Positions 13,177-52,980 of a DNA stretch of 64,000 nt are shown piece after piece. The DNA is from Oceanicoccus sp. KOV_DT_Chl (GTDB lineage Bacteria > Pseudomonadota > Gammaproteobacteria > Pseudomonadales > Dasaniaceae). Made by a program: the position numbers and the translations under genes. Below the pieces are notes generated by a model. It did no database searches. It was not told where the DNA came from and saw only the letters and a list, made by a program, of their open reading frames with translations. Position 1 is the stretch's first letter; the number at the start of each line of letters is the position of its first letter. The DNA lies in NCBI RefSeq assembly GCF_900120175.1, contig NZ_FQLF01000001.1, forward strand, positions 248,001 through 312,000, given 5' to 3'.

Positions 13177-14764
13177 ATGACTGCAGCATTTAACACGGCA
13201 GAGTTGCCGGCGAACACGCCTGTCTTGATTGGTGCGGGGCAAATGGTTGAGCGAGAGGCAAGCCAGCACTCGCACATGCAATTAGCCGCGCAAGCAGCTG
13301 TTATCGCCCTCGGTCATGCTACAACTAACTCGGCAATTGATAATGACGCCCTTGCGGCGAATATTGATACGATTGCGGTCACCCGATTATTTTCCGACAT
13401 GGGCCAGCTATGGCCTGTCAATGGGGGCGTAGCAATAACCCTCCGCAATCGATTGCTCACGTCATTAAAGCCAACCCCAAGCATCGGATTTACTCTCGCG
13501 CTGGCGGTAATCAACCGCAATCACTCTTGATTGAGTTTGCTCGTGACATTGCTAACGGCGAACGTGACATGGTGTTAATCGCCGGCGCTGAAGCGTTGAA
13601 AAACCAGCGGCACGCCGATAGAAAACAAAAAGAGTTACCGGACTTTTCCCTCAACTGGCATGAGAATTTTAATCAGCCCTTGAAGATCGCGGCATCGGCG
13701 AGATGTTTGCCACACCGCAAGAATTAAACAACGGCCTGAATAACATCGCGCTGTATTATGCGTTAATTGAACAGGCCCAGCGCCAGCAAGCTGGCCGTTC
13801 TATTGAAGCGCATCAGCAAGCGATGGCAAAACTATTAGCGTCCTTTAGTACCATCGCTTCTAACAACCCTTATGCACAATTTGCTGGCCAGCAAACCGCT
13901 GAAGAGATTCAAAGCGCCAGTCCAATCAATCACATCTATACCAAGCGCATGATCGCACAGGATAGCGTCAATCAAGGTGCTGCGATTATTTTGTGTAGTC
14001 TGGGTAAAGCTAAAGCGTTAGGTATTCCTGAATCACACTATATTTATTTACATGGCATGGCCGAAGGTATTGAACATCCTCTTAGTCAGCGCCTCAACCC
14101 AGCACAATCTTCAATTGCCAATCAGGTCACCGACCGTGCGCTCAGTATGGCGAAGCTGACAATGGATGATATCGATCTGATTGATATTTATAGCTGCTTT
14201 CCCTGTGCGATTACTGCTATTGCCGAACATCTTGGCCTGCCCGTTGATGGCAGCCGCGCACTCACTCTCACCGGCGGCTTGCCTTATTTTGGTGGTCCCG
14301 GTAATAACTACAGCATGCATGCAGTGGCTGAAGCTGTTCAACAATTACGTCAAGCAGAACATAAAAACACTTACGCAATGGTAACTGCCAATGGCGGTAT
14401 GTTATCCAAACATGCTGCGCTCATTTATTCGAATCTACCAAGTACTATTGACTGGTCAACGATTAATACTACCGTTTCGCACGCACTACCGCCGGTTGAT
14501 ATTAATGAAAACCCTGGCACCGGAACGATTGTGTCCTATGTCATTTACCCTGATCACAAAGGCCATGTGAAAGCGGTGATTATCGGGCGCACAGATCAAC
14601 ACGAGCACTTTGTTGCTGGCACCGAAGACGGCGCTACCATTACTGCCATGCAAAACGAAGATCCCTCTGGAAAAACAGTAAAGGTCAACCCTGTGCAAGG
14701 AAAACTTTTTTTTCATTTACAGATAGCTTCTGTAGACAACGTCCACGAGGAGAATCTTCAATGA
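13177..14764 (+). CDS. Thiolase-like protein type 1 (acetyl-CoA acetyltransferase-like), two frameshifts
   Basis: About 529 residues after repair, paralogous to the protein at 22743-24269. The N-terminal piece (NTPVLIGAGQMVERE) runs to about 13425, the middle (GRSNNPPQSIAHVIKANP, then GGNQPQSLLIEFARDIANGERDMVLIAGAEAL) to about 13680, and the remainder to the stop codon. One extra base at CC near 13412 gives WPCQWGRSNN. One extra at CCCTT near 13680 gives NQPxEDRGIGEMF. Thiolase-fold landmarks are DLIDIYSCFPCA and [18 protein letters not shown]. The N-terminal catalytic Cys position reads GGNQPQ, so classical ping-pong thiolysis is doubtful. A beta-rich C-terminal domain follows, as in TLP1 proteins. 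Start ATG abuts the preceding stop. Confidence 0.8.
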
Positions 14765-18165: not shown

Positions 18166-19179
18166 TCAATTGCGCCTGATTACTTTACGAAATTTACCGG
18201 GGGTAGTGCCTTCCCAACGCTGAAATGCATGCTGAAATGCACTCTGGTCATTGAAACCCAGGTAATCGGCAACTTCACTCAGTGTTAACTCAGGTTTTAC
18301 CACCAGCTCCCGGGCGAGCCCTCTGCGCACATCATCGAGTAGTATCTGGTATTTCAACTGGCGTTCATGCAGGCGACGTTGCAGCGTGCGCGATGTCATA
18401 TCCAGCGCCTTGGCCGTATCGCCAATTTTTGGCAGGCCAAAGGGTAGTTGGTTGAGGATGACCCCACGGATAGTGTTAATCAGTTTGTCTTCACCACGTA
18501 ACGCCATCAATCGTTGTCTAGCTAGATCTTCTGTATAAGGGAACAAGTCATCCTGATCGTAGCGCGATTTCAATTCAAGAAACTGTTTCGGTACAAAGAT
18601 GCGATCGGCACTGCAATCGAAACTGACATCAGCATTCAATACCTTCTCTACATGCGCAGTGCTGCCCGCATACTCATGCTTGAATTCAATACGGATATGA
18701 TGCGAGGGATAACCGATCTGGGAGCTCGCTAGTGCGAGGATATTTGCAAACATATGCTCAATCACATGGCGACTGGGACGTCGTGGTACGTTGCTCAGCC
18801 ATGACAGCACCAAATTGTCCCCCTCGGGTTCATCTAGTTCAAACTGTGCAAAGTCCAATTGCAGGCGGGAATAGTTCAGCAACGCTGATAGCGCTATCAA
18901 AGGGGTAGGCGCCGACATGGCCAGATGTGATACCAGTCCCCAGGAACGTGGCATTGGGCTGGCACCCATGTTGAGGCCGAAATGTTCATCACCGGTCAGT
19001 GCTTGCCCCACGACAAAGAGCCGCTGGTAGTCCTTTAGCGATACCCGGCCATTAAGCACCAGTTGCTGTCTATTATTTCGTTTTAATTCATTGAGTACCG
19101 CGCTCTCGTCAATACCCTGGCTGGAAAGGTACTCGAACGCGGCATGCATAAAGCTTGGGGAGACAGTAGGGATAGCCAT
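18166..19179 (-). CDS. AraC-family regulator with arabinose-binding-like N-terminal domain
   Basis: A 337-residue regulator. The N-terminal 230 residues resemble the large ligand-binding domain of OruR/ArgR-like AraC regulators (MPRSWGLVSHLAMSAPTPLIALSALLNYSRL). The C-terminal 100 residues carry two helix-turn-helix motifs: IGDTAKALDMTSRTLQRRLHERQLKYQ and LSEVADYLGFNDQSAFQHAFQRWEGTTPGKFR. It is divergent from the P450 gene, with 116 bases between them. That gap holds repeated TGGCGCG-containing boxes that are good operator candidates. This regulator type commonly activates catabolism of lipids or steroids in response to a small ligand; which one is unknown. Confidence 0.92.
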   Translation of the reverse strand: MAIPTVSPSFMHAAFEYLSSQGIDESAVLNELKRNNRQQLVLNGRVSLKDYQRLFVVGQALTGDEHFGLNMGASPMPRSWGLVSHLAMSAPTPLIALSALLNYSRLQLDFAQFELDEPEGDNLVLSWLSNVPRRPSRHVIEHMFANILALASSQIGYPSHHIRIEFKHEYAGSTAHVEKVLNADVSFDCSADRIFVPKQFLELKSRYDQDDLFPYTEDLARQRLMALRGEDKLINTIRGVILNQLPFGLPKIGDTAKALDMTSRTLQRRLHERQLKYQILLDDVRRGLARELVVKPELTLSEVADYLGFNDQSAFQHAFQRWEGTTPGKFRKVIRRN

Positions 19180-20641: not shown

Positions 20642-22339
20642 ATGATAAAAATAAACGATCCGCTAGCTAATTTAATTTCACCGCTAGATGCCTTTTACCA
20701 ACGGGTACAGCAATCACCTGACAGTCTTTGCTTTGTGCAGCCTTTAGGCGAGGGGAGAGTCGAGCAATATACCTGGTCTCGTGCCAGTGACGAGGTGCGC
20801 AGCATGGCGGCTTACCTACTCTCTCTGGAGCTTCCACCGGGCAGTCATATCGCGTTGTTTTCAAAAAATTGTGCCCAATGGATAATGGCAGATTTGGCAA
20901 TATGGCTTGCAGGCCATGTCACTATTCCCATTTACCCGACCCTAAGCGCCGAGTCTATTCGCCAAATAATGCAACACAGTGGTAGTCAGCTTGTGTTTAT
21001 TGGCAAGCTGGATAACTGGGAAGAAATGCAAGATGGTATTGCTGAGAACATCCCACGTGTTTGCTTTTCCTCAAGCCCGGACGCCGTAAAAGCAGAATGC
21101 CTGTGCTGGGATAAAGTGCTAACAGAATTTACTCCCTTTGCACAAAGCCCATCACCAGATTTGGATGCACTAGCGACGATTGTCTATACCTCGGGCACTA
21201 CCGGTATGCCCAAAGGTGTGATGCATTCATTTCGAACCATGGGTACCACCGGCTTGCTAGCGGGTGAGTTATACCAGAGCGGCGGCGCTGATAGATTCTT
21301 ATCCTATTTACCTCTGGCCCATGCTGCTGAGCGGGCCAGTGTGGAGGTCTGCCAGTTTTATCGGGGATTCGCTATTTATTTTTGCCATTCCCTGGACACC
21401 TTTGCTGAAGACCTTCTTCGTGCATCCCCCACATTATTTTTCGCGGTACCGCGTATATGGACCAAGCTGCAGCAGGGCGTCTTCGCCAAATTGTCGCCAA
21501 GGGTATTAAATACATTGATGATGGTTCCGGGGGTGTCGGGGCTATTGGGCCGAAAAATATTAGGGAAAATGGGCTTGGGCAATGTGCGTATTGCAATTAG
21601 TGGGGCGGCACCATTATCAACCTCATTGCTGGCCTGGTATCGCAAGCTTGGGTTGGAAATCCTCGAAGGCTACGGGATGTCAGAAAACTTTGCCTATTCC
21701 CATACCTCTCAGTTGGGTGAGTCAAAAATGGGTTATGTAGGTACTGCCAATCCCTATGTCGATTGCCGTATCGCCGACAGTGGAGAAATCCTGATTCATT
21801 CACCTACCAACATGCTTGGCTATTACAAGGATCCAGAGCAAACCCGTGCAACCCTGGATGAAAAGGGTTATTTACACACCGGAGATATAGGAACTATTGA
21901 TCAGCGCGGTCGGCTGAAAATTACCGGGCGTATCAAAGAGATATTTAAAACCAGTAAGGGAAAGTATGTTACGCCGGCACCGATTGAAAATCGATTATTA
22001 AGCAATACCAACGTCGAGCAGGTTTGCGTTACTGGCGCCTCATTGCCGCAACCGATTGCCTTGGTAAATTTATCCGCGGTGGCGATGAAGAAACTCGATA
22101 GCAGCGAGGATGGCAAGCAAGAAATCATTAATTCATTCAGCGACTTGCTAAATGAATTAAATGGCATTGTCGATAAACATGAAAATCTGCAGTGCTTGGT
22201 TATCGTGCGAGAAATTTGGGGTGTGGAAAATAACTTCACCACACCGACGCTAAAAATTCGTCGTAATACTATCGATGAATATTACGGAAAATTTTACCAA
22301 TCCTGGGTTGATAGCGGCAACAAAGTCATTGTGGTCTGA
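20642..22339 (+). CDS. Long-chain-type AMP-dependent acyl-CoA synthetase
   Basis: A 565-residue ligase with the P-loop TIVYTSGTTGMPKGVMHSF, the AISGAAPLSTSLLAWY region, EGYGMSENFAYSH (A5 motif) and HTGDIGTIDQRGRLKITGRIKEIFKTSKGKYVTPAPIE (A7-A8). The last segment and its ending resemble long-chain (ACSL, FadD15-like) synthetases rather than the shorter enzyme at 14761. It activates the acid produced by P450 or upstream oxidation to a CoA thioester. It lies 116 bases behind the P450 in the same direction and could share its transcript. The start has only a weak AAGG site. Confidence 0.92.
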   Translation: MIKINDPLANLISPLDAFYQRVQQSPDSLCFVQPLGEGRVEQYTWSRASDEVRSMAAYLLSLELPPGSHIALFSKNCAQWIMADLAIWLAGHVTIPIYPTLSAESIRQIMQHSGSQLVFIGKLDNWEEMQDGIAENIPRVCFSSSPDAVKAECLCWDKVLTEFTPFAQSPSPDLDALATIVYTSGTTGMPKGVMHSFRTMGTTGLLAGELYQSGGADRFLSYLPLAHAAERASVEVCQFYRGFAIYFCHSLDTFAEDLLRASPTLFFAVPRIWTKLQQGVFAKLSPRVLNTLMMVPGVSGLLGRKILGKMGLGNVRIAISGAAPLSTSLLAWYRKLGLEILEGYGMSENFAYSHTSQLGESKMGYVGTANPYVDCRIADSGEILIHSPTNMLGYYKDPEQTRATLDEKGYLHTGDIGTIDQRGRLKITGRIKEIFKTSKGKYVTPAPIENRLLSNTNVEQVCVTGASLPQPIALVNLSAVAMKKLDSSEDGKQEIINSFSDLLNELNGIVDKHENLQCLVIVREIWGVENNFTTPTLKIRRNTIDEYYGKFYQSWVDSGNKVIVV

Positions 22340-22742: not shown

Positions 22743-24269
22743 ATGAAAAACAATAATGAAAACGCCCCCGTTATTATTGCAGTAGGGCAAAAAACCTACC
22801 GCGATATGGATCTTACACGAAGCCCGGTTGACGCCATGGAGGATGTCGCCAGATTGGCTTTTGCTGAAGTGTCGGGCGATGCATTATTGAAGGATATAGA
22901 TGCTCTGGCAACCATTCGATTTATTGCAGAGGCCAATGAACATGTCGCGGCTTTAATGCCGCCGAATGCTGGAGAAACCTTGCGTGAGCTTTTAGGTCTC
23001 GACAACGCAAACTGCTACCGCGCTAACATCGGTGGCAATACACCGCAGATGTTAGTCAACCATTTCGCAGATAAGTTGGTTGCGGGCGAAGTGCGTACGG
23101 TGATGCTCTGTGGCGGGGAATTAATCGCTTCCTTTTTCAAGGCACTATCAGCAGGCAGTGATTTGTCATTTTGGCAAAACGGTGCAGACAAAGATTGCAC
23201 ACAATTAGTTGCGGATAAAGCGGGTACTAGCGCTTTTGAGGATGCCCATGGATTGTTCGAACCGATCAATACCTACCCGCTATTCGAAAGTGCTATCCGC
23301 CACCATATGGGCCATTCGATAACACAGCACCAACAGCATTTAGGCGCGTTATGTAGTCGCATGAGTGCAGTAGCGGCAAGTAATGAACACGCTTGGAAAA
23401 TGCAGAAAAAATCGTCAGCGGAAATCGCCAGTGTTAGTGAGCGTAATCGCTATATTGGGTTTCCGTATACCAAAGCCATGAATGCGGTGTTGGCAGTAGA
23501 TATGGCGGCGGCAGTGATTATGACTACCGCAGGTAATGCCCGTAAGTTGGGTGTGGAGCCTGGCCAGATGATCTATTTAACGGGTACGGCGGATGCTGAT
23601 GATCGTTGGCATGTTAGCGAGCGTTTAAACTTTCACAGCTCACCCGCGATAAAAGTTGCCGCTGAGTCAGCCCTGTCTATGGCTGGATTGGGTGTTGATG
23701 ACATCGACTTGTTTGATCTATACAGCTGTTTTCCCTGCGCGGTTGAAGTGGCTTGTGACGCTATAGGTCTTGCCAGCGACGATCCCAGAGGCGTGACGGT
23801 AACGGGAGGCCTACCTTTCTTTGGCGGTCCAGGAAATAATTATTCCCTGCATGCTATTGCCGAGATGGTATCGCGGCTACGTAATGGTGGCGGTAAACAC
23901 GGCTTAGTCACTGCCAATGGTTATTATCTAACAAAACATGCTGTGGGAATTTATTCGACAGCAGCGCCGCAGCAGAGTTGGTCACCCACTAGCAAACAAA
24001 ACTTACAGCAACAGCTAGATACTTTGGACTATCCCGCTTTGGAGATGCAAGCCTCGGGGACTGGCACCATTGAGGCGTATACCGTTGCCCATAGTCGTAC
24101 GGGACCCGAACGAGCAATAGTTATCGGGCGCCTTAATAACCAGCGGCGTTTTATTGCTAACACCACCACGGATGAAGCCACGCTCAATGCTTTGCTTGAA
24201 CGGGATGCCGTTGGCCTGCAAGGTACGCTGAATAATAATAATGGTCTTGTCAGTTTTGAATTGAATTGA
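22743..24269 (+). CDS. Thiolase-like protein type 1 with added C-terminal domain
   Basis: A 508-residue intact paralogue of the frameshifted gene at 13177-14764. Residues 1-400 have the thiolase fold: [50 protein letters not shown] and [23 protein letters not shown]. At the site of the usual N-terminal catalytic Cys the sequence reads IGGNTPQ, so that nucleophile is absent, as in TLP1/SCP2-like proteins. The remaining Cys and His in SCFPCA and NNYSLHA may act. Residues 415-508 form a small beta domain ([29 protein letters not shown]) as in mycobacterial thiolase-like protein 1. It likely cleaves or condenses branched or steroid-type acyl-CoA; inferred. Confidence 0.85.
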
Positions 24270-24316
24270 ATATAAATAATCAGGCTGAAAAGCCTGTGTT
24301 GAATCAGGAGTTTTTC

Positions 24317-25525
24317 ATGTCGAATACCGCGTATATCTACGAAGCTATTCGTACCCCCAGGGGTAAAGGTAAAAAAGATGGGTCACTGCATGAGGTTAAA
24401 CCAGTGACTTTAGCTGCAGGCTTATTAACTGAATTACAGCAGCGCTTATCGCTGGACACCGCAAAAGTAGACGATGTGGTGATGGGGTGTGTGATGCCGG
24501 TGGGTGAGCAGGGCTCAGATGTTGCTAAAACTATTGTGCAGGCGGCGCAGTGGGATGAGAGTGTACCGGGTCTGCAAATTGATCGCTTTTGTGCTTCGGG
24601 TTTAGAGGCCGTTAACTTGGCAGCGATGAAAGTGATGTCGGGTCAGGAACACTTGGTAGTTGCCGGTGGTGTCGAAAGTATGTCGCGGGTACCGATGGGC
24701 TCCAATGGTGGTGCGGTATTTCTTGACCCTGAATATGCGCTGTCCATGCGATCTGTGCCGCAAGGCGTTGGTGCCGACTTAATTGCTGCCATTGATGGTT
24801 ATAGTCGCGAAGATGTCGATGCCTTCGCCTTGGCCTCTCAGCAGCGTGCGGCTTATGCCAGAGATAATGGCTATTTTGATCGCTCGGTGGTGCCGGTTAA
24901 AGACAGCAATGGTCTTAGTATTTTAACCAAAGATGAGTTTATAAAACCGGCTTCTACGATGGAGATTTTGGGTGGACTTAAGCCATCCTTTGCGCTGCAT
25001 GGTTCGCTAGGTTTTGATGATATGGCGCTATCGAAATACACCAGTATTGAAAAAATTGAGCATGTCCATACGCCGGGGAATTCTTCAGGCATTGTTGATG
25101 GCGCCTCGGCGGTATTAATTGGCAGTGAAAAGATTGGCGTGGATCTGGGCCTTAAACCAAGGGGGCGTGTTGTCGCGACCGCGGTGATTGCGACCGATCC
25201 AATTATCATGCTGGCAGGGCCAGGACCTGCCGCTAAACGGGTACTCGAAAAAGCGGGCATGACGGTTGACGATATTGACCTGTTTGAAATCAACGAAGCC
25301 TTTGCATCAGTAGCACTGCGTTTTATGAAAGACCTCAACATTTCACATGAGGTCACCAACGTCAATGGCGGCGCCATTGCCATGGGTCATCCATTGGGTG
25401 CCACCGGCGCCATGCTAATCGGCGTGGTGTTGGATGAATTGGAACGGCGCAAGTTGAAGCGTGGATTAATAGCGTTATGTGTTGGCGGTGGCCAGGGTAT
25501 TGCAACCATTATTGAACGAATTTAA
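24317..25525 (+). CDS. Acetyl-CoA C-acyltransferase (thiolase, FadA-like)
   Basis: A 402-residue degradative thiolase that cleaves 3-ketoacyl-CoA with CoA. All catalytic residues are visible: nucleophile Cys in [12 protein letters not shown], the Asn in INEAFA, His in [17 protein letters not shown] and the second Cys in [13 protein letters not shown] 24317 has AGGAG seven bases upstream; a frame from 24266 overlaps the previous gene by four bases but adds 17 unlike residues. It is followed almost directly by the FadB-like gene, the usual alpha-beta pair of a trifunctional beta-oxidation complex, here in the order thiolase then multifunctional enzyme. Confidence 0.95.
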
Positions 25526-25540
25526 GTGGGTGATCAGACA

Positions 25541-27679
25541 ATGAGTACATTTTTATATGAAAAGGACGAGGCGGGTATCGTCACGGTAACCATGGATATG
25601 GAAGGTCCGGTAAATACCATGAACGCTGCTTTCAGGACGTTAATGAAAGACACCGTTGATAAGCTGGAGCAAGAGCACGGTTTAACAGGGGTGGTTATAG
25701 CCTCCGCAAAAACCACCTTTTTTGCCGGCGGCGATTTGAAGGAAATGTTAGCCACTCAGCCAGATCAGGTGGAGCAATTGTTCGAACAGGTTGAGCTGAC
25801 AAAATTGCAGCTGCGCCGTCTTGAAAAGCTACAGGTGCCGGTCGTCGCAGCCATTAATGGTGCCGCACTGGGTGGCGGCTATGAGATTTGTTTGGCATGT
25901 AACTATCGTATCTTGCTCAATAATCCCAGCGTGATTATTGGTTTGCCAGAAGTAAGCCTGGGCTTATTACCTGGCGGTGGTGGCACCGTTCGCTTGGTTC
26001 ATCGCCTGGGGTTACAGGCGGCATTGCCTTATTTAACCGAAGGCAAGCGCTTGAGACCTGACAAAGCGCTCGCCAATAATCTGGTGGAACAGCTAGAGGG
26101 TGACAAAGAACAGTTGGTTCCTGCGGCAAAACAATGGATCAAAGCTAACCCTGATGCCTGGCAGCAGCCCTGGGATATGAAAGGACATGTGGTACCCGGC
26201 GGTGGTATTGCCGATAAAGATGTTCAGCAATTATTACAAGTAGCACCTGCGCTATTGAGAAAAACGACTCGAGGTTTATTGCCATCGCCGGCAGCGATTT
26301 TATCCGTCGCTGCCGAGACGATGACGGTAGATTTTGATACTGCTTTACGGGTAGAGACACGACACTTTTTACAGTTGGTGTTAGGGCCTGTCGCTAAAAA
26401 TATTATCAGTACGTTGTTTTTCCAACTCAACGATATTAATGGCGGCGCCAGTCGGCCTAAAAGCGTAGCACAAAAGAAAGTAAAAAAGCTGGGGATACTC
26501 GGTGCTGGCATGATGGGCCAAGGTATAGCGTATTGCGCAGCTTCCGCTGGCATAGAAGTGGTGCTTAAAGATATTTCGATAGAGGCTGCTGAAAAAGGCA
26601 AAACTTATTCGCATAAATTGTTGGCAAAGCGAGTAGCAAGAGGTCACATGGATCAGGCTAAAATGGATGGTATTTTAGCCAGAATTAAACCTTCGGAAAA
26701 TTATCAGGATTTACAGGGTTGCGATCTGATTATTGAAGCGGTGTTTGAAAATATTGAGCTTAAAGCCAAGGTCACTCAGGAGGCCGAACCACTGCTAGCC
26801 AATGGCGGCGTGTTTGGTTCTAACACTTCTACATTGCCAATTACAAAGCTGGCCGAGGCGAGTAATAAACCGGAAAATTTCATAGGTATCCATTTCTTCT
26901 CACCCGTGGATAAAATGCCGTTAATCGAAATTATCTGTGGCGATAAAACCAGCGATGAAGCGTTGGCGCTGGCTTTTGATTTTGCCCGTCAAATTAACAA
27001 GACTGCGATAGTTGTTAACGATGTGCTGGGTTTCTTTACCTCACGAGTGTTCGGTACTTTTATGGACGAAGGCGCGCGGTTATTGCAAGAAGGTGTTAAC
27101 CCTATTTTGATTGAAAGAATGGGGCAGGCAGTTGGTATGCCGGTGGGACCTTTGGCCGTACACGATGAGGTCAGCCAAAAACTTACCCATAGTGCCGCAC
27201 AAACCCAGCGTGATATGGGTATGGATTGTTCCATTAGTGATGTCACAGTGCTCGATGTACTGTCTGTGACCTTGATTGAACAGTATGGTCGCGGCGGCAG
27301 GGCTCATGGCGGTGGTTATTATGAATACCCTGAAGACGGCGAAAAACACCTCTGGCCTAAGCTGTTTGAGTTATTTCATAAGCCTGAAGTTGAGCTGGCA
27401 GAGGATGATATTAAAGATCGTCTGTTGTTCAGGCAGGTGATTGAATCATTAAAATGCTTGCAAGAAGGTGTATTACGTTCAGTCGCGGATGGTAACGTGG
27501 GTTCTATTATGGGTATCGGTGCGCCAGTTTGGACAGGTGGGTTTCTGCAGTTTATTAATACTTACGGTGCCCGGAATTTTGTCGATCGCAGTACTGAGCT
27601 TGCCGCTAAATATGGTGACCGTTTCATACCGCCTGCCAATGTTGTTGAAGCGGCGAAAAATGGCAGTACATTTAATTAG
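25541..27679 (+). CDS. Bifunctional enoyl-CoA hydratase / 3-hydroxyacyl-CoA dehydrogenase (FadB/FadJ-like)
   Basis: A 712-residue multifunctional beta-oxidation enzyme. Residues 1-300 are a crotonase domain with both catalytic Glu (AALGGGYEICL and GLPEVSLGLLPGGGGT). Residues 320-600 are a 3-hydroxyacyl-CoA dehydrogenase domain with the NAD loop LGAGMMGQGIAYCAASAG and catalytic His in HFFSPVDKMPLIEI. A second dehydrogenase C-terminal repeat follows. ATG 25541 is preceded by GGGTG; GTG 25526 directly after the thiolase stop is a less likely start. It forms a transcriptional unit with the upstream thiolase. It performs hydration and oxidation of the enoyl-CoA made by the downstream acyl-CoA dehydrogenases. 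Confidence 0.95.
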   Translation: MSTFLYEKDEAGIVTVTMDMEGPVNTMNAAFRTLMKDTVDKLEQEHGLTGVVIASAKTTFFAGGDLKEMLATQPDQVEQLFEQVELTKLQLRRLEKLQVPVVAAINGAALGGGYEICLACNYRILLNNPSVIIGLPEVSLGLLPGGGGTVRLVHRLGLQAALPYLTEGKRLRPDKALANNLVEQLEGDKEQLVPAAKQWIKANPDAWQQPWDMKGHVVPGGGIADKDVQQLLQVAPALLRKTTRGLLPSPAAILSVAAETMTVDFDTALRVETRHFLQLVLGPVAKNIISTLFFQLNDINGGASRPKSVAQKKVKKLGILGAGMMGQGIAYCAASAGIEVVLKDISIEAAEKGKTYSHKLLAKRVARGHMDQAKMDGILARIKPSENYQDLQGCDLIIEAVFENIELKAKVTQEAEPLLANGGVFGSNTSTLPITKLAEASNKPENFIGIHFFSPVDKMPLIEIICGDKTSDEALALAFDFARQINKTAIVVNDVLGFFTSRVFGTFMDEGARLLQEGVNPILIERMGQAVGMPVGPLAVHDEVSQKLTHSAAQTQRDMGMDCSISDVTVLDVLSVTLIEQYGRGGRAHGGGYYEYPEDGEKHLWPKLFELFHKPEVELAEDDIKDRLLFRQVIESLKCLQEGVLRSVADGNVGSIMGIGAPVWTGGFLQFINTYGARNFVDRSTELAAKYGDRFIPPANVVEAAKNGSTFN

Positions 27680-27806: not shown

Positions 27807-28982
27807 ATGCTAAAACGAAATTTTACCGAAGAGCAGAATATGTTTCGGGATGCCTATCGAAAATTTCTAAGTGCCGAGATTGTTCCTAATATGGAGCGTT
27901 GGCGGGAGCAGGGTATCGTAGATCGCGAGGCTTTTTTAAAGGCTGGCGAACAGGGTTTCCTAATGATCTGGCCAGATGAGGCGTTGGGTGGTATGGGCGA
28001 TAATGATTTTCGTTATGAGCAAATCATCATAGAAGAAAATTCCTACGCCCGCACCAGTGACTGGTTTTGTACTTTACACAGCCGTCTTGTCGGTCCTTAT
28101 TTTACCCGTTGCGGCAGTCCGGAGTTACAGCAGCGTATTTTGCCAAAGTGTATCACCGGTGAAACTATTCTGGCGGTGGCCATGACCGAGCCAGATGCTG
28201 GAAGTGACTTGGCGGGCATGCGAGCTACAGCAAAGCTGGACGGAGATCACTGGGTACTGAATGGCGCTAAAACGTATATTTCAAATGGCATAAACGCCGA
28301 TGTCATTATTGTTGCGGCAAAAACTGACCCCGACAACAATCCCCATGCGATGGGTTTATTTGTGGTGGAGCGGGGTATGGATGGATTTGAGCGTGGACGC
28401 AATCTCAAGAAAATGGGTCTAAAGGCCCAGGACACTGCCGAGTTATTTTTTCACGATGTCAAAATTCCAAAAGAAAATGTGCTTGGTGATCCGCAGCAGG
28501 GTTTTATTTACCTTATGCAAGGTTTAGCGGAAGAGCGCTTAATTGGTTCGGTAGGCTATCTCAGTGCGGCACAATTATCATTTGACCTCAGCCTTGAATT
28601 TGTTCAGGACCGTAAAGTATTTGGTAAGCCCTTATCAAAGTTTCAAAATACCCAGTTTGAATTAGCGGCGTTACGAACTGAAATTGATGTGGCGCAATGC
28701 TATGTTGATCAATGCGTGGCTGCTCATAATGCCGGCGAGTTGACTGATGTTGATGCAGCTAAAGCAAAACTGTTAACCAGTGAGTTGCAAATAAAAGCGG
28801 CGAATTTAGGTGTGCAGTTACATGGGGGAGCTGGTTATATGGATGAGTATGCCATTTCCCGTCAATATACCGATGCGCGAATTTCTACCATTTATGCCGG
28901 TAGTTCGGAAATAATGAAAATTATTATCAGCCGGGATTTTATGTCACCAAATTATATTCCCTTTAATAGCAAAAACTTTTAA
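27807..28982 (+). CDS. Acyl-CoA dehydrogenase 1
   Basis: A 391-residue FAD flavoprotein of the acyl-CoA dehydrogenase family. Visible segments are AMTEPDAGSDLAGMRATA (flavin contact), NGAKTYISNGINAD, FGKPLSKFQNTQFELA and LHGGAGYMDEYAISRQYTDARISTIYAGSSEIMK. The Glu of the MCAD-type YEGT motif is replaced (IYAGSSEIM), so the base is probably the Glu of helix G, as in isovaleryl- and long-chain enzymes. It begins a run of three related dehydrogenase genes, seven bases before the stronger start of the next. It introduces a 2,3 double bond into an acyl-CoA; branched substrate is plausible. Confidence 0.93.
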   Translation: MLKRNFTEEQNMFRDAYRKFLSAEIVPNMERWREQGIVDREAFLKAGEQGFLMIWPDEALGGMGDNDFRYEQIIIEENSYARTSDWFCTLHSRLVGPYFTRCGSPELQQRILPKCITGETILAVAMTEPDAGSDLAGMRATAKLDGDHWVLNGAKTYISNGINADVIIVAAKTDPDNNPHAMGLFVVERGMDGFERGRNLKKMGLKAQDTAELFFHDVKIPKENVLGDPQQGFIYLMQGLAEERLIGSVGYLSAAQLSFDLSLEFVQDRKVFGKPLSKFQNTQFELAALRTEIDVAQCYVDQCVAAHNAGELTDVDAAKAKLLTSELQIKAANLGVQLHGGAGYMDEYAISRQYTDARISTIYAGSSEIMKIIISRDFMSPNYIPFNSKNF

Positions 28983-28995
28983 TTGAGGTGTGACT

Positions 28996-30786
28996 ATGTC
29001 TGATTACAAAGCACCGTTACGGGATCTTCAATTCTCTCTTTATGAAGTTAACGCTTATCGAGATCATCTCAATTCGTTTGCTGCTGGCGAAGCATTTAGT
29101 GATGATTTGTATCATGCGATTACGGCCGAGGCCGCAAAGTTCGCAGAAAAAACCTTGGCGCCGCTAAATCAATCGGGCGACCGAGAAGGGGCCAGGCTGG
29201 TTTCTCCAGGTACAGTTGAGACCCCCGATGGTTTTAAACAGGCCTACACTGATTTTGTGAATGGCGGCTGGCCATCAATGGAGTTTGCGGAAGAGCGTGG
29301 CGGCCAAAACCTGCCAGCATCGCTGGCAACCGTGGTCTATGAAATGTTTCATGGCGCTAACAGCTCATGGTCACTCTATCCGGGTTTAACCGAGGGCGCG
29401 ACCGTGACGCTACTTACGCATGGGTCGGATGCTCAGCGCGATTTATACCTGTCAAAAATGGTGGCCGGTCATTGGACAGGAACCATGAATTTAACCGAGC
29501 CGCACTGCGGGTCTGATCTGGGCTTATTGAAAACCAAAGCCACGCCACAGCCTGATGGCAGTTATCGGATCAGTGGCAGTAAGATTTTTATTACTTCAGG
29601 CGAGCACGATTTATCAGAAAATATTATCCACTTGGTGCTGGCTCGCCTTCCTGATGCGCCTGCGGGCGTAAAGGGGATATCCCTATTTATCGTTCCCAAG
29701 TTTTTAGTAAACGACGACGGCTCCTTGGGTGATCGCAATAAACTGGTTTGTGGTTCCGTTGAACATAAAATGGGATTGAAAGGCAGTGCCACTTGCGTGA
29801 TGAATTACGATGATGCGCAAGGATTTTTAATTGGCAAGGAACATTGTGGTCTGGCTTGTATGTTCACCATGATTAATAAATCCCGTCTTGGCGTGTCGAT
29901 ACAGGCGGTCGGTATCGCTGATGGTGCTCTGCAAAGTTCATACAATTATAGTCATGAGCGACTGCAGGGACGGGCACCTGGCGGGACAGCAAACCCGGAT
30001 AAAATTGCTGATCCAATCATCGTTCATGCGGACATTAGACATAAATTATTAACCCAAAAAGCGTTGCTCGAGGGCGGACGCTTCCTTTGTCATTATAGTG
30101 CCATGCTGGTCGATCATGAGTTTCAGGGGGATTCCCAGCAAGCGAAAACAGCCAGTGAGAAACTCGCGATTATGATTCCCATCGTCAAAGCCTGTGTCAC
30201 CGAGTGGTCGGTGGAGTCGGTGGATCTTGCGCTGCAATCTTTGGGTGGGCACGGCTACATCGCGGAGTGGGATATTGAACAGCGTTATCGTGATGTGAGG
30301 CCAAGCCGGATCTATGAGGGTACAACCCATATTCAGGCATTAGATCTGCTCGGTCGAAAAATTTTAGGCGGCAAAGGTCAGGCGCTAGAACAGTGGTTAC
30401 AAGAAATGGAAAATTATTGTGAGAGTGTTGATGCTGACGCTAGTACCGAGCCGTTACTGTATCAGTTCCGTGCGTTGCTCGCTGATTATCGCAGTCTTCT
30501 GAGTAACATTGTTGAGCGCTTAGCTAGCCATCCGGATTATATACCGGGTGTTGCCTCCGACTTTTTAATGATTTCTGGCTATTTGGCGCTCGCTTTTATG
30601 TGGGCTAAAGCCGCAGTTGTGTCGCAAAGTAAATTGCAAAAACCTGACGATGATGCAGATTTTTATACTGATAAGTTGAATACGGCTGACTTTTTTTATC
30701 AAAAGATTTTACCCCGAGTGAGCTTTCATACAGCGTCTATAAATGCCGGGGTTGAATCACTGCCGGTACCGATATTGGCGCGTTAA
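28996..30786 (+). CDS. Acyl-CoA dehydrogenase 2, long form with C-terminal extension
   Basis: A 596-residue dehydrogenase of the long family (about 200 residues more than usual). It has an N-terminal cap (MSDYKAPLRDLQFSLYEV), the core TGTMNLTEPHCGSDLGLLKTKA, VEHKMGLKGSATCVMNYDDAQGFLIG, and VDLALQSLGGHGYIAEWDIEQRYRDVRPSRIYEGTTHIQALDLLGRKI. Here the catalytic Glu is in place (YEGTT). The C-terminal 130 residues are a helical dimer domain typical of the DmdC/AcdA-like family. ATG 28996 follows GAGG at seven bases. It is probably co-transcribed with the gene before it and may act on long or aromatic-chain acyl-CoA. Confidence 0.93.
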   Translation: MSDYKAPLRDLQFSLYEVNAYRDHLNSFAAGEAFSDDLYHAITAEAAKFAEKTLAPLNQSGDREGARLVSPGTVETPDGFKQAYTDFVNGGWPSMEFAEERGGQNLPASLATVVYEMFHGANSSWSLYPGLTEGATVTLLTHGSDAQRDLYLSKMVAGHWTGTMNLTEPHCGSDLGLLKTKATPQPDGSYRISGSKIFITSGEHDLSENIIHLVLARLPDAPAGVKGISLFIVPKFLVNDDGSLGDRNKLVCGSVEHKMGLKGSATCVMNYDDAQGFLIGKEHCGLACMFTMINKSRLGVSIQAVGIADGALQSSYNYSHERLQGRAPGGTANPDKIADPIIVHADIRHKLLTQKALLEGGRFLCHYSAMLVDHEFQGDSQQAKTASEKLAIMIPIVKACVTEWSVESVDLALQSLGGHGYIAEWDIEQRYRDVRPSRIYEGTTHIQALDLLGRKILGGKGQALEQWLQEMENYCESVDADASTEPLLYQFRALLADYRSLLSNIVERLASHPDYIPGVASDFLMISGYLALAFMWAKAAVVSQSKLQKPDDDADFYTDKLNTADFFYQKILPRVSFHTASINAGVESLPVPILAR

Positions 30787-30859: not shown

Positions 30860-32032
30860 ATGTCGCTAGATTTTGATAGTGCCAGACTAGAAGATCCACA
30901 CTTGACCGAGAGTCATCAGCAGTGGCGTAGCCAGCTTCGGCGTTTTGTTGATAAAGAGATAGTGCCGCACGTGGATGAGTGGGATGAAGCCGGCGGCTTA
31001 CCGGGTGAGCTATGGACTAAGGCCGCAGACATTGGCTTGCTGCAGCTGGGTTACCCGGAGCAATATGGTGGCACTTCTGAAGGCATTGATATTTACCATC
31101 GTAATATTGTTGCTGAAGAATTATCTCGCACCAGTCTTGGTGGTCTGTTAAGTACCTTACTCTCACACGGTATTGGCTTACCCCCTATTGAAGCCTTTGC
31201 CTCGGAAGACATTAAAGCGCAGGTGATACCACCGATCCTCGCGGGGAAAAAACGTATAGCGCTAGCGGTCACTGAGCCCTCGGGTGGTTCCGACGTCGCC
31301 AATTTACTGACCACTGCCAAGCGTGACGGCGATGATTATATTGTTAACGGCTCCAAGACTTTTATTTCTGGCGGCATGGGTGCTGATTGGTTTACTACCG
31401 CAGTGAGAACCGGTGACGAGGGCGTTAAGGGGCTATCAGTACTGTTGATACCGGCGAATTTAGCGGGAGTATCCCGCACGCCGCTGGAAAAAAAGCAGGG
31501 CTGGTGGTGTTCCGATACGGCGACTATCTATTTTGATAATGTGCGTGTACCTGCCAATAATTTGGTAGGGGAAGAGGGCCATGGTTTTTGGGTTATTGCC
31601 AACAACTTTAATGCGGAACGTATGTCGATGGCGGTCATTATGGAGGCGAGTTCGCGGGTCTGCCTGGAGGATGCGGTCAACTGGGCAAAGGAACGCAAAA
31701 CGTTTGGTAAACGTCTGGCCGACCATCAAGTTATTCGCCACAAAATTGCCCAAATGAAACAGCGTATTAACGCGACGCAATCTTATATTCAATTTTGTTC
31801 GCGGATGATAGTAGAGGGCAAAGCCCTGCCTGGTGATCTTGCCCTATTAAAAGTTCAAGGTAGCGAAACAATGGAGTTTTGCGCGCGTGAGGCCATGCAG
31901 ATTTTGGGTGGTATTGGTTATATGCGAGGTAATCGGGTAGAGCGGATTTATCGCGAAGTTCGGGTGATGGCGATAGGTGGCGGCTCGGAAGAGATCATGC
32001 GCGATTTGGCCGCGCGTCAATATGGCCTGTAA
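30860..32032 (+). CDS. Acyl-CoA dehydrogenase 3
   Basis: A 390-residue acyl-CoA dehydrogenase. Segments include RFVDKEIVPHVDEWDEAGG, LAVTEPSGGSDVANLLTTAKRDGDDYIVNGSKTFISGG, KKQGWWCSDTATIYFDNVRVPANNLVGEEGHGF and ILGGIGYMRGNRVERIYREVRVMAIGGGSEEIMRDLAARQYGL. The GGGSEEIM ending, without the MCAD-type Glu, is like citronellyl-CoA and isovaleryl-type dehydrogenases that handle methyl-branched chains, which fits an isoprenoid substrate. That is inference from motif shape only. The gene follows the long dehydrogenase after 73 bases and precedes the linalool-isomerase-like gene. Confidence 0.93.
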   Translation: MSLDFDSARLEDPHLTESHQQWRSQLRRFVDKEIVPHVDEWDEAGGLPGELWTKAADIGLLQLGYPEQYGGTSEGIDIYHRNIVAEELSRTSLGGLLSTLLSHGIGLPPIEAFASEDIKAQVIPPILAGKKRIALAVTEPSGGSDVANLLTTAKRDGDDYIVNGSKTFISGGMGADWFTTAVRTGDEGVKGLSVLLIPANLAGVSRTPLEKKQGWWCSDTATIYFDNVRVPANNLVGEEGHGFWVIANNFNAERMSMAVIMEASSRVCLEDAVNWAKERKTFGKRLADHQVIRHKIAQMKQRINATQSYIQFCSRMIVEGKALPGDLALLKVQGSETMEFCAREAMQILGGIGYMRGNRVERIYREVRVMAIGGGSEEIMRDLAARQYGL

Positions 32033-32047
32033 TCGTTCCGGCACAAT

Positions 32048-32077
32048 ACATAAACATAAACATAAACATAAACATAA
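32048..32077. repeat. Hexanucleotide tandem repeat (ACATAA)5
   Basis: Five perfect ACATAA units 16 bases after the dehydrogenase stop and 65 bases before the next start codon. Slippage could alter promoter or leader spacing of the downstream gene. No other microsatellite of this length was noticed nearby. Confidence 0.9.
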
Positions 32078-32141
32078 GCAGAAACCAGTGAGTATCACAT
32101 GATATTTAACGAGCAGCACAACTGTAATGAGAACGTTAATT

Positions 32142-33556
32142 ATGAGTAAAAAAGGTTGGCTGAAACTAACGGGTGTTATCGTTATTGCCGCCACACTGGT
32201 GACAGCTGTGTTACTGATACTGCCACTTGGTTTTCCAGGCGCTGACGCTTATTTCGAGCAAGTCGGGCAGCGCGAATTACAGACAGATGAAATTGGACAG
32301 ATGCGCTCGCTACAAGAAACATATCTAACGCTGTCACTTAGTGGTGATGATTTTAAAGGCTGGAGTGTTGAACATCAGGATTTCTGGAAGTACTCGATAG
32401 CGTTTGCATTTTATGGCATGCCTTCAGCCATTATTATCAATCCAGAGAAAGCCGATGAATACAGGGCGCTCATGGATATGATGATTTGGGCAATGAAGTC
32501 GAAAAAAGTCTGGGGGATTTTACTGATCGTGGTTTTGGTGCTGACCCTATCAGCATGCAAAACATTATGTACAAGGGCCACTTAAACCTGATGTATGGCC
32601 TTTACCAAATGTCCACTGGGGATATGCGTTACGCCCGTGAATACACATGGTTGACGGGTCAAATCGCCGAGGAAATGCGCCTGCATCATGAAGGAATTTA
32701 CGAGGGTGTCACTTGTGAGCCCAATGCCTGGTTTGTGGAGTGCAATACCATCGGTATGTTGAGCTTGCACGTCTATGACAAACTGTACGGCACCACCTAT
32801 ACCGAGAATGAAATTCAGTGGTCCCTCGACTTTATTATGGGTCGCATGCGCGACCAGGATACGGGTTTGTTTTACCGATATTATCAACCCAACCATGACT
32901 TTGTCAGAACCGATATTTCTGGTTATGCGAACGCGTGGATTGTTAGTTTTTTAAACCCATTTTTACCGGCAGAAATGACTGAGGTTTACCAAACATTCAA
33001 GGAAAAGCTGACCGTCGAATATGGACCTTACGCCTCGGTTTACAACCGCATTGGCGACATCCGAGAGACGGATACAACGGCCCATCTATTTGGATTGATC
33101 GCCGCAAAAGAATTTGGCGATGAGAAACTCTTCGGCAAACTGCGCAACGCGATAGACAAAGTAGGTGACCTGACTATCGATTATCAGCGCGGCGGCCTGG
33201 TCTACGATAATCCTGACAATACTATGATTAACGGGCTGGTGCTGGCGAGCAAACTGCATCTGGGATGGGATACGGTTTTGGGTTATGACTGGGGGTTTAA
33301 AGGTGTGCCTTATACCATTCCCGATACCACAGACATGTCTTGGGTCGACCTGTTGCCGCAACGTGTTTATACCCTTAATGGTGAAAGCAGTTTGCCGTTG
33401 CATAGCGACGCGAGACCGTGTCCCAACTGTTACTGGGGAGATTATGTCTCCCAGAGAATGAAATTTAATGCCGAAAAAGCCAGCGCCAATCAGGGGCCAG
33501 AGTGCCCCGCAAACGCTTCTTCGAGCTGTGGCCTAAAAAAATTATTAGCGGAGTAA
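32142..33556 (+). CDS. Linalool dehydratase/isomerase-like protein, one frameshift
   Basis: About 471 residues after repair. The N-terminus has a lysine-rich start and 22 hydrophobic residues ending PGADA, so it is exported or membrane-anchored. The first frame breaks at a run of five G (32512-32516). A sixth G joins KKVWG to DFTDRGFGADPISMQNIMYKGHLNLMYGLYQ. Two Cys, 192 and 201, in CEPNAWFVEC have the nine-residue spacing of the catalytic Cys171/Cys180 of Castellaniella linalool dehydratase/isomerase. His147 in MYKGHLNLM matches its active-site His region. That enzyme converts myrcene, linalool and geraniol in the periplasm. A Cys-rich tail (CPNCYWG) is additional. Substrate here is inferred as an isoprenoid alcohol or alkene. 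ATG 32142 follows GAGAA. Confidence 0.75.
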
Positions 33557-33742: not shown

Positions 33743-36136
33743 ATGCTAATAAAAGATACCGTTGGCAGCTTCGTCTGCTCATTGACTATCACAGGACTAT
33801 TGATTTCTGCATCATCATCAGCACAAATGCTGGAGGAAATCACTGTCACCGCTCAGAAGCGGGTTGAGGGCCTCGGCGATGTGCCGCTGTCTATTCAAGT
33901 CGTTGCTGGAGATACGCTTGACCGGAGCAACATCTTCTCGTTTAAAGACCTGGTAGACCGCCTGCCCAATGTTACTTTCGGCGAATCACCCGGACAAAAG
34001 ACAATCAGTATTCGAGGTGTGGGAACAGGTACCTTTAATGCCGCCGCCGAACAGTCTGTCGGTATGTATGTCGACGGCATCTACGCTAGCCGCGGCCTGC
34101 AGTTTAGCTCTCCCTTTCTTGATATTGAACGTGTCGAAGTGCTCAAAGGCCCGCAGGGGGTACTGCAAGGAAAAAACAGTATCGCCGGTGCGATTGTTGT
34201 CTCTACCCGTCGCCCGACGATGGAGAAGGAAGGCTATATTAGCGGCAGCTACGAAGTTGAAAACGACGGCTACAATATCGAGGGAGCCATTTCCGGCCCC
34301 CTTACTGACACACTGGCTTTACGGCTAACAGCACAACAAAACTTTGCCGGTGGCTGGATCGACACCAACAGCCGACTGGCAGCCGACGGTACCACCGTAT
34401 TACGTGGTCAGAATGATCAAAACGAAAATACATTCTCATTACTGCGGTTGAGTAGTTTGTGGTCTCCTTCTGAGAACCTTGAACTTTTCCTAAAGCTGGA
34501 AACAGGAAAATCCAAAAATGAGGGCGTTGCTTATGGTGGCTATGCCATTCAACCCGGCGCAGTGGTAGGCGGCGTTACTAACGACCAAACACTGATTATC
34601 GACGACTACCTGAGCCGTGACCCCAACTATGGCACCATCACCGATGGCATCTCGAGTACCGGATTCAGAACTGAATATAACGAGGCTATCAATCTTTTTG
34701 AGGCTAACAACAAAGGCCTGTACCAGGAAATCGAAAACGACTCCGCCACTTTTCAGTTCGACTGGAACACGGGCGAACTGGGAACACTCACGGGGATAAC
34801 GGGTTATTCTAGTTACGACGAAGAGAGCTATATTACCAATACAATGGCACCGTTGGACTGGTACCACACCTATGGTGAGAAAGGTAATGGTGGCGAAGAG
34901 TTCGAGCAGCTGACACAGGAAATCCGCCTGACATCTTCAGGCGGTGCCACGATTGACTATATCGTTGGCGTTTTTTACATGGACCGGACCATAAAACAAG
35001 ATGGCGCTGGTACTAATGTTAATCTGAGCAATGGCGGATTCGGGCTTCCCCCTTTTTCTGATCTTAGTGGTATACGCCACTTTAATGAAGACACTGAAGC
35101 CTGGTCTGTATTTGGACAGATTACCTGGAATATCAGTGATGCCTTGCGCCTCAACCTTGGCGCAAGATACACCGATGAAACCAAAGAAGTGGATCACACG
35201 CTTGCAACACAGTTTCTGGTTGTAGTGCCACCACTCAACCAGCTTGTTCTAGACCAGTTTGCCATAGAGCCTTTCATCACTGAAGATTTGTCTACTGACG
35301 AGGTAAGTGATTCCAATACCGATCCTAGTGTCTCTGTGCAGTGGGATATGACAGATGATTTGATGTTATACACGTCCTACACTCAGGCGACCAAGGCGGG
35401 GGGCTTCAATTCATCAACATTCTCACCAGAAAACGCCAGCTTCGAGCCGGAACAGGCCACGGCTGTTGAAGTCGGGGTGAAGGGGCTTTTCATTGATGGC
35501 CGTCTAGGTGTCAATGCTTCTCTCTTCCATACTGAATATGACGATCTTCAGGTCGCCGCCCTGGACACCAATACCACCTCCTTCTTTTTCAAGAATGCTG
35601 CAAAAGCCACCTCGGAAGGTGTCGAAGCCGATTTCCGCTTCGCTGCGACGGAGGGGCTGGAGTTAGGAGGAGCAATGGCCTATCTGGATGTGAGTTACGA
35701 TGATTTCCCCGGCGCCACTTGTTCAACAGGTACTTCACAAGAAGCGGATTGTGATCCCGTCAGTCTTACGCGCAACGCCAAAGGTGACACTCTGCGTGCT
35801 GCTCCGGAATGGACAGGCACCTTGTATGCGGATTATCGCTGGCTGCTTGATAGCGGCATGGAGGTAGCATTGAGAGGTGATGTCATCTACAGCGACGATT
35901 ACTACATCGACACACCAAACGACCCATACCTGCAGCAGGACTCATTCACCAAGCTGGACCTGCTCGCTAGCATAACCAGTGCGTCCGGTGACTGGACGCT
36001 CTCAATCATTGGCAAGAACGTCACCGATAAAACCACTGTCAGTTTTGGTGGCGGTACCCCGCAGCGTGAAGGGGCATACTGGTCGAATGTAGATAGTCCT
36101 CGGCTTGTATACGTCAAGGCTGACTATCGTTTTTAA
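33743..36136 (+). CDS. TonB-dependent outer-membrane receptor
   Basis: A 797-residue receptor with a signal peptide (SLTITGLLISASSSA), TonB box EEITVTAQKR, plug features (LVDRLPNVTFG, ISIRGVGTGTFNAAAEQSVGMYVDGIY, VEVLKGPQGVLQGKNSIAGAI) and a barrel ending VYVKADYRF with terminal Phe. It belongs to the same broad group as the receptor at 2404. Position directly behind the catabolic island suggests it imports that pathway's substrate. A GGAAA site precedes ATG. The sequence looks richer in G and C at third positions than its neighbours at 36.5-43 kb. Confidence 0.93.
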   Translation: MLIKDTVGSFVCSLTITGLLISASSSAQMLEEITVTAQKRVEGLGDVPLSIQVVAGDTLDRSNIFSFKDLVDRLPNVTFGESPGQKTISIRGVGTGTFNAAAEQSVGMYVDGIYASRGLQFSSPFLDIERVEVLKGPQGVLQGKNSIAGAIVVSTRRPTMEKEGYISGSYEVENDGYNIEGAISGPLTDTLALRLTAQQNFAGGWIDTNSRLAADGTTVLRGQNDQNENTFSLLRLSSLWSPSENLELFLKLETGKSKNEGVAYGGYAIQPGAVVGGVTNDQTLIIDDYLSRDPNYGTITDGISSTGFRTEYNEAINLFEANNKGLYQEIENDSATFQFDWNTGELGTLTGITGYSSYDEESYITNTMAPLDWYHTYGEKGNGGEEFEQLTQEIRLTSSGGATIDYIVGVFYMDRTIKQDGAGTNVNLSNGGFGLPPFSDLSGIRHFNEDTEAWSVFGQITWNISDALRLNLGARYTDETKEVDHTLATQFLVVVPPLNQLVLDQFAIEPFITEDLSTDEVSDSNTDPSVSVQWDMTDDLMLYTSYTQATKAGGFNSSTFSPENASFEPEQATAVEVGVKGLFIDGRLGVNASLFHTEYDDLQVAALDTNTTSFFFKNAAKATSEGVEADFRFAATEGLELGGAMAYLDVSYDDFPGATCSTGTSQEADCDPVSLTRNAKGDTLRAAPEWTGTLYADYRWLLDSGMEVALRGDVIYSDDYYIDTPNDPYLQQDSFTKLDLLASITSASGDWTLSIIGKNVTDKTTVSFGGGTPQREGAYWSNVDSPRLVYVKADYRF

Positions 36137-51724: not shown

Positions 51725-52870
<1,146 letters not shown>

Positions 52871-52980
52871 CGCCACGATTGACTTGTTAGTTGCTGTCAT
52901 CTTTGTGGCTGGCAAGTTTGGATAACAATAAGATTCCCCGTTGTCGGGAATATCAAAAGTTTAGTTAGGATTTTAAACAG

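Follow-up and report, generated by a model that had tools for sequence, protein, structure and literature searches.

The window analysed here is a 64,000-nucleotide stretch of the genome of Oceanicoccus sp. KOV_DT_Chl. It contains ten plus-strand genes, running from a cytochrome P450 to a TonB-dependent receptor, which are separated by gaps of −4 to 403 bases in an operon-like arrangement (Table 1). The run includes a gene similar to that of linalool dehydratase/isomerase (LDI), a rare bacterial enzyme by which water is added to, removed from or shifted within plant-type fragrance molecules, and the neighbours that had been proposed for this gene are all present: the P450, an acyl-CoA ligase, two thiolase-type genes, a FadB-type gene, three acyl-CoA dehydrogenases (ACADs) and the TonB receptor. 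Among the annotated genes of the run, which were inspected without a dedicated search, neither a P450 ferredoxin nor an alcohol or aldehyde dehydrogenase was noticed. A scan of the sequence for promoters and terminators gave counts close to those of shuffles. Members of a P450 family share more than 40% sequence identity; with 41.3% identity to 3tkt, presumably CYP108D1, and 38.9% to P450terp, the window P450 is a borderline case by this rule. It appears CYP108-like, with CYP108/P450terp as its nearest relatives, and would be compatible with terpenoid oxidation.

Table 1. Features of the window (positions counted from its first nucleotide).
Feature	Position	Strand	Remark
Type-1 thiolase-like gene	13171–14764		Read in more than one frame
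AraC-type regulator	18166–19179	−	Divergent from P450 gene
Cytochrome P450	19296–20525	+	Closest solved relatives 3tkt, P450terp
Acyl-CoA ligase (AMP-binding)	20642–22339	+	
Type-1 thiolase-like protein	22743–24269	+	
Acetyl-CoA C-acetyltransferase	24266–25525	+	NF006090 above cut-off
FadB/FadJ-type enoyl-CoA hydratase/3-hydroxyacyl-CoA dehydrogenase	25526–27679	+	
Acyl-CoA dehydrogenase 1 (ACAD1)	27807–28982	+	
Acyl-CoA dehydrogenase 2	28990–30786	+	PF12806 C-terminal domain
Acyl-CoA dehydrogenase 3 (ACAD3)	30860–32032	+	Ends GGGSEEIM...; 94 bases upstream of Ldi-like gene
ACATAA tandem repeat	32048–32085	.	6.3 copies, in gap between ACAD3 and Ldi-like gene
Ldi-like gene, whole	32127–33556	+	Two overlapping ORFs
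Ldi-like N-part ORF	32127–32585	+	Covers hydrophobic N-terminus and first helices of the barrel; homology as far as about 32513
Ldi-like C-part ORF	32486–33556	+	Catalytic His, Cys pair, C-terminal tail; PF18566 and LDI match
His codon	32579–32581	+	Corresponds to LDI His129; within NIMYKGHLNLMYGLYQ
CEPNAWFVEC	32714–32743	+	Cys codons 32714–32716 and 32741–32743, corresponding to LDI Cys171 and Cys180
C-terminal tail	33419–33556	+	From CPNCYWGD on; four Cys
TonB-dependent receptor	33743–36136	+	186 bases downstream of Ldi-like gene
pheT, N-terminal part	52870–53420		Read in more than one frame

The Ldi-like protein is spread over two ORFs, with the homology switching from the N-part to the C-part frame near position 32513, and the two parts were used as separate queries in all searches. 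Against the Pfam family Ldi (PF18566), whose cut-off is 26.1 bits, the C-part scores 114.7 bits (E = 7.9e-33). This is far above chance, and the proposed family membership holds in an HMM search; a Pfam search with the N-part alone returned no match. When the C-part was searched against the PDB, the best match was Castellaniella LDI (E = 7.5e-48), and a profile built from four relatives, three of them intact and one cut by a contig end, retrieved LDI at 6.7e-79 over profile positions 25–381 of 473. Identity to Castellaniella LDI amounts to 38% for the C-part and 31% for the N-part; the latter shares 48–56% identity with five relatives. There is one Ldi match in the whole genome.

Intact copies of the Ldi-like gene are present in relatives. 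In the window, the N-terminal part of pheT and a type-1 thiolase-like gene are likewise read in more than one frame, and genome-wide three of about six carboxyltransferase genes look split into two adjacent matches, by our interpretation of nine rows. Since pheT, a normally essential gene, is broken too, the frame break in the Ldi-like gene is probably an assembly or sequencing error.

A structural model was obtained with AlphaFold2 from the intact relative L011 and five companion rows (pTM 0.69; pLDDT 64.8 overall, but under 50 in most of the tail). In a Foldseek search with this model, ranks 1–27 were all LDI entries (E = 8.2e-13 to 1.4e-11; TM-scores of 0.64–0.76 by target length), and the first match outside LDI was a GH76 mannanase at 1.5e-4. 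The model of this relative, rather than of the window protein itself, thus displays the LDI-like (α/α)6-barrel that had been anticipated.

The active site is conserved in part. CEPNAWFVEC aligns with both Cys171 and Cys180 of LDI, and the His of NIMYKGHLNLMYGLYQ aligns with LDI His129; both assignments made in the original prediction, the Cys pair by its spacing and the His by its distance, are borne out. The C-E-x7-C motif is found in 22 of the 23 family proteins that cover the site (L007 being read in its correct frame), and the Cys spacing is a mark of the Ldi family; as it is so widely shared, it is no proof of linalool activity. His129 is less frequent than the motif (10 of 21 motif rows). 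All members of the branch to which the window protein belongs (see below) that cover the site have Tyr66, Trp106, Met125, His129, Cys171, Glu172, Cys180 and Asn181 in LDI numbering, and Gly107 is variable. With family, the fold of a relative, the Cys pair and the His all in agreement, the claim of an LDI-like enzyme stands.

The Asp and Tyr equivalents that had been expected in the pocket, however, are not conserved. Asp39 and Tyr45 of LDI, which we take to be catalytic, are both replaced in the branch, and the chemistry could therefore differ. The window protein has Ser at position 45 and, at position 39, either Thr (profile alignment) or Tyr (multiple alignment), the alignment of this loop being uncertain by one residue; in the multiple alignment, L004, the protein of G310, and L011 have an Asp one place ahead of the position-39 column. 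The disulfide Cys49–Cys102, which caps the cavity in LDI (numbered 48/101 in PMC6600392), is absent as well: all six branch members carry Asp and Ser instead, and the Asp at the place of Cys49 is invariant among them. Because these two features of LDI fail, Asp39/Tyr45 and the cap disulfide, we would not name the protein a linalool dehydratase/isomerase.

All five branch proteins whose C-terminus is complete, among them the window C-part, end in a tail some 80 residues long that carries a CPxC[FY]WG motif and two additional Cys. The LDI chain stops before this region, and two proteins of the L015/G613 group lack the tail. Four of the five tailed proteins have six Cys, namely the catalytic pair and the four of the tail, and L011 has seven; the window N-part contains none. 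Of the four Cys that LDI has in the compared stretch of 361 residues, two form the catalytic pair and two the cap. From this distribution we infer that structural disulfides have shifted out of the core into the tail, which probably has taken over a stabilising or capping role. At the other end, each of the six branch proteins has one strongly hydrophobic stretch; in the window N-part, the best 19-residue mean is 2.75, versus 1.19 elsewhere in that part. A periplasmic location is plausible from this segment.

To find relatives, a collection of species genomes was scanned with two short peptide patterns. This yielded five loci: in Proteobacteria UBA7415 (L011), an Arenicella MAG (L012), a Halieaceae MAG (L013), Bermanella (L014, cut by a contig end) and a Coriobacteriales MAG (L015, 33%). 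Among 369 genomes sampled from the class, five including the source genome gave a match, G310 being the only close one (64%). For PF18566 the counts, each including the source genome, were 2 among 57 relatives, 3 among 398 genomes from the phylum and 10 among 390 from the order; none of the six other genomes of the genus had a match. Given these low counts, the branch is rare and scattered in the genome samples examined. The four intact relatives measure 470–485 residues. Among the papers listed by literature searches, none describing this branch was noticed, and PMC12455561 yielded nothing relevant.

A 21-row tree places the window C-part in a six-row branch (support 98/99), where L013 is the row nearest to it by tree path. 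LDI and the L015/G613 pair join this branch in a nine-row group (100/99), and which of the two is closer to it is unsure (83/83). Judged by its sequence, the window gene is a true but divergent member of the Ldi family, and it shares a supported group with LDI proper. The Coriobacteriales MAG contains two adjacent Ldi-like genes (L015, 9440–12199); the one with the Cys pair has a Tat-like-looking N-terminal stretch, SRRSFLGAG, and the other is without the pair. A mobile origin was considered and rejected: there was no relative in viral contigs or phage records, and plasmid homologues were only distant (23–25%, two records).

The gene surroundings of relatives were compared using homologues of 15 chosen window proteins (E 1e-10, ORFs of at least 120 residues), a comparison that other pathway genes may escape. 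In the flanks compared for five branch relatives (38, 21, 12, 15 and 4 kb), the P450, the ligase, FadB and the thiolases of the window had no homologue. In G310 (L009), a TonB receptor lies about 9 kb from the Ldi gene. In L013, an ORF with an enoyl-CoA hydratase start (ECH_1, E = 4.2e-15) begins 178 bases after the Ldi gene, an ACAD with 24% identity to ACAD1 lies about 2.6 kb away, and an SDR gene is located about 2.5 kb upstream. As L013, with these ECH_1 and ACAD neighbours, is the nearest row in the tree, the link to CoA metabolism may hold.

Parts of the island were also found apart from an Ldi gene. G012 has an orthologue of the P450 (73%) with no other island homologue within 20 kb. 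An 18-kb stretch of G005, which belongs to the same genus, carries a cluster (L043, 3131–17968) with a P450 of 48–49% identity to that of the window, an ACAD 67% identical to ACAD1, a thiolase-like protein (36%), ligases (23–25%), a TonB receptor (27%), an enoyl-CoA hydratase, an aldehyde dehydrogenase, SDRs and a CoA-transferase III, in an order and on strands that differ from those in the window. No Ldi gene was found in this cluster or in the G005 genome; such P450/CoA clusters therefore exist without one. A conserved gene order of the island was rejected in view of these stretches of G012, with the P450 alone, and of G005, rearranged and lacking Ldi. In the wider family, two of six genomes examined (G032 and G921) have an Ldi gene for 637–639 residues amid ligase and ACAD genes together with P450 or thiolase-like genes; in the other four (G845, G947, G687 and G1043) and in the L015 and G613 stretches, there were no homologues of the pathway neighbours. 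The G032 cluster (L041, 16037–17956; L042, 12216–13994) combines the gene for a 639-residue Ldi with those for a CoA ligase, a CoA-transferase III and ACADs, and with a P450 fused to DUF3237.

The gene order thus gives an isoprenoid pathway mixed support, and none of the relatives found so far shares this set of degradation genes around its Ldi gene. The original prediction of a new catabolic system keeps its basis in the operon-like run of the window; it loses ground through relatives without most of the neighbours and through the P450/CoA cluster without Ldi in the genus. Its remark that LDI homologues with a full degradation cluster and P450 are little described needs a limit, since the Thauera lis gene is reported to adjoin atuCFE, with geoAB nearby (PMC4847356).

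About 70 kb before the window, on the same contig (L055, 6299–14019; G000:C1), lie genes for AtuA, an AtuA ferredoxin-like protein, an AtuE-like hydratase, a biotin carboxylase, a biotinyl-domain protein, a carboxyltransferase and an ACAD. AtuA was recognised with E = 1.4e-154, and the AtuE-like hydratase with 279 bits, below its own cut-off of 426. The carboxyltransferase, which is split, reaches 363–403 bits in its six best matches, to chains named PCC or MCC, versus 304 bits with geranyl-CoA carboxylase (GCC). In geranyl-CoA carboxylase, Gly replaces Phe191 of MCC (PMC4673880); by a provisional mapping, this position is Ala in the genome's enzyme. The cluster is perhaps a γ-carboxylation route for branched acyl-CoA, nearer to MCC than to GCC by score. 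A Liu-type cluster was located on another contig, its gene names resting on interpretation and its carboxyltransferase on the best match to MCC. Co-occurrence of AtuA with the Ldi-like gene was rejected for want of enrichment: AtuA is found in three of six branch genomes, four of them lacking a completeness value, versus 29 of 57 relatives. Being no commoner in the branch, AtuA does not track the Ldi-like gene.

The reading that we favour, and to which we give an even chance, is that of an exported or anchored Ldi-family (de)hydratase/isomerase which acts on a tertiary allylic isoprenoid alcohol or the corresponding alkene, has its gene close to the end of the operon-like run and belongs to a separate branch with Asp39, Tyr45 and the cap replaced. 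The predicted (α/α)6-barrel enzyme would be exported or anchored through its N-terminal hydrophobic segment and would act outside the inner membrane, where the Cys171/Cys180-type pair and His129 would add, remove or move water on the substrate; the Cys chemistry would most likely be acid/base or covalent. The four-Cys tail would probably stabilise the barrel or cap it in place of the Cys49–Cys102 lid. The P450, the ligase and the β-oxidation enzymes encoded alongside could degrade that terpenoid, or one related to it, through ω-oxidation. Such a joint route would resemble the aerobic C8-hydroxylation of myrcene or linalool: the aerobic myrcene route is reviewed as C8-hydroxylation, CoA activation and β-oxidation, alongside a linalool 8-monooxygenase (PMC4097962). 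A bolder version, which we consider distinctly unlikely, would make the branch a second mechanistic class of LDI in gammaproteobacterial, including marine-type, lineages. Working without Asp39, Tyr45 and the cap, it would rely on the invariant Asp that stands where LDI has Cys49, would have its C-terminal tail, with disulfides, as a lid, would take some isoprenoid other than linalool as its substrate, and would here feed aerobic P450/CoA/β-oxidation with its own TonB uptake receptor.

The alternatives differ mainly in what they make of the neighbours. The enzyme might stand alone in the periplasm, for detoxification or defence, converting toxic terpene alcohols to less harmful alkenes or the reverse, with no tie to the β-oxidation genes; a defence role was indeed proposed for periplasmic Ldi by the Thauera Lis authors (PMC4791888). 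The differing surroundings in five relatives, the Ldi gene without AtuA in G310 (99% complete) and the P450/CoA cluster without Ldi in G005 all point this way. The position of the window gene does not: it follows ACAD3 on the same strand after 94 bases and precedes the TonB receptor, and in L013 genes for an enoyl-CoA hydratase and an acyl-CoA dehydrogenase lie close to the Ldi gene. We regard a stand-alone enzyme as unlikely, though to be reckoned with. A strict linalool dehydratase/isomerase, turning linalool or myrcene into geraniol for Atu and Liu pathways encoded elsewhere, appears quite improbable. It would account for the 38% C-part identity to LDI and for the presence of AtuA, the AtuE-like hydratase, carboxylase subunits and the Liu-type cluster in the same genome; against it are the missing Asp39, Tyr45 and cap disulfide, a carboxyltransferase that scores higher with PCC/MCC than with geranyl-CoA carboxylase, and the frequency of AtuA in branch genomes compared with relatives.

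The gene might also be decaying, its frame change a real mutation and its protein not made. The broken frame in the assembly and the absence of Ldi from the six other genomes of the genus would fit; the catalytic residues are kept, however, and pheT and the thiolase-like gene are broken as well, while three of about six carboxyltransferase genes appear split, which points to assembly error. This explanation seems to us the least probable of all. The branch is of significance in two respects. In a 2018 review, the discussion of the Cys-pair mechanism leaves acid/base versus covalent catalysis undecided (PMC6013536); a branch with the Cys pair and His, and without Asp39, Tyr45 and the cap disulfide, would be a natural test of this question. 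It would also be a new enzyme source for the cofactor-free making of dienes and tertiary alcohols.

We know of only two characterised members of the Ldi family, LDI and Lis. Castellaniella defragrans 65Phen LDI (PDB 5hlr, 5g1u and 5i3t) resembles the Ldi-like protein in family, predicted fold, Cys171/Cys180, His129, Tyr66 and Met125. It differs in that Asp39, Tyr45, Cys49 and Cys102 are replaced in the Ldi-like protein, which adds a C-terminal extension, and in the aerobic-type gene neighbourhood around the Ldi-like gene. Lis of Thauera linaloolentis 47Lol is similar to LDI, and its gene lies near the CoA-type isoprenoid genes atuCFE and geoAB; the protein is described as 644 residues long, with a cytosolic domain, four transmembrane helices predicted at the N-terminus and 20% identity to LDI (PMC4791888, PMC4847356). 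That description of a type with about 640 residues and four helices sets it apart from the branch relatives, which are shorter and have a single hydrophobic N-terminal stretch. The island, for its part, is comparable to P450terp/CYP108 and the aerobic routes of myrcene C8- and linalool 8-hydroxylation: although the identity of the window P450 is borderline for the CYP108 family, 3tkt and P450terp are its nearest solved relatives, and ligase and β-oxidation genes follow it downstream.
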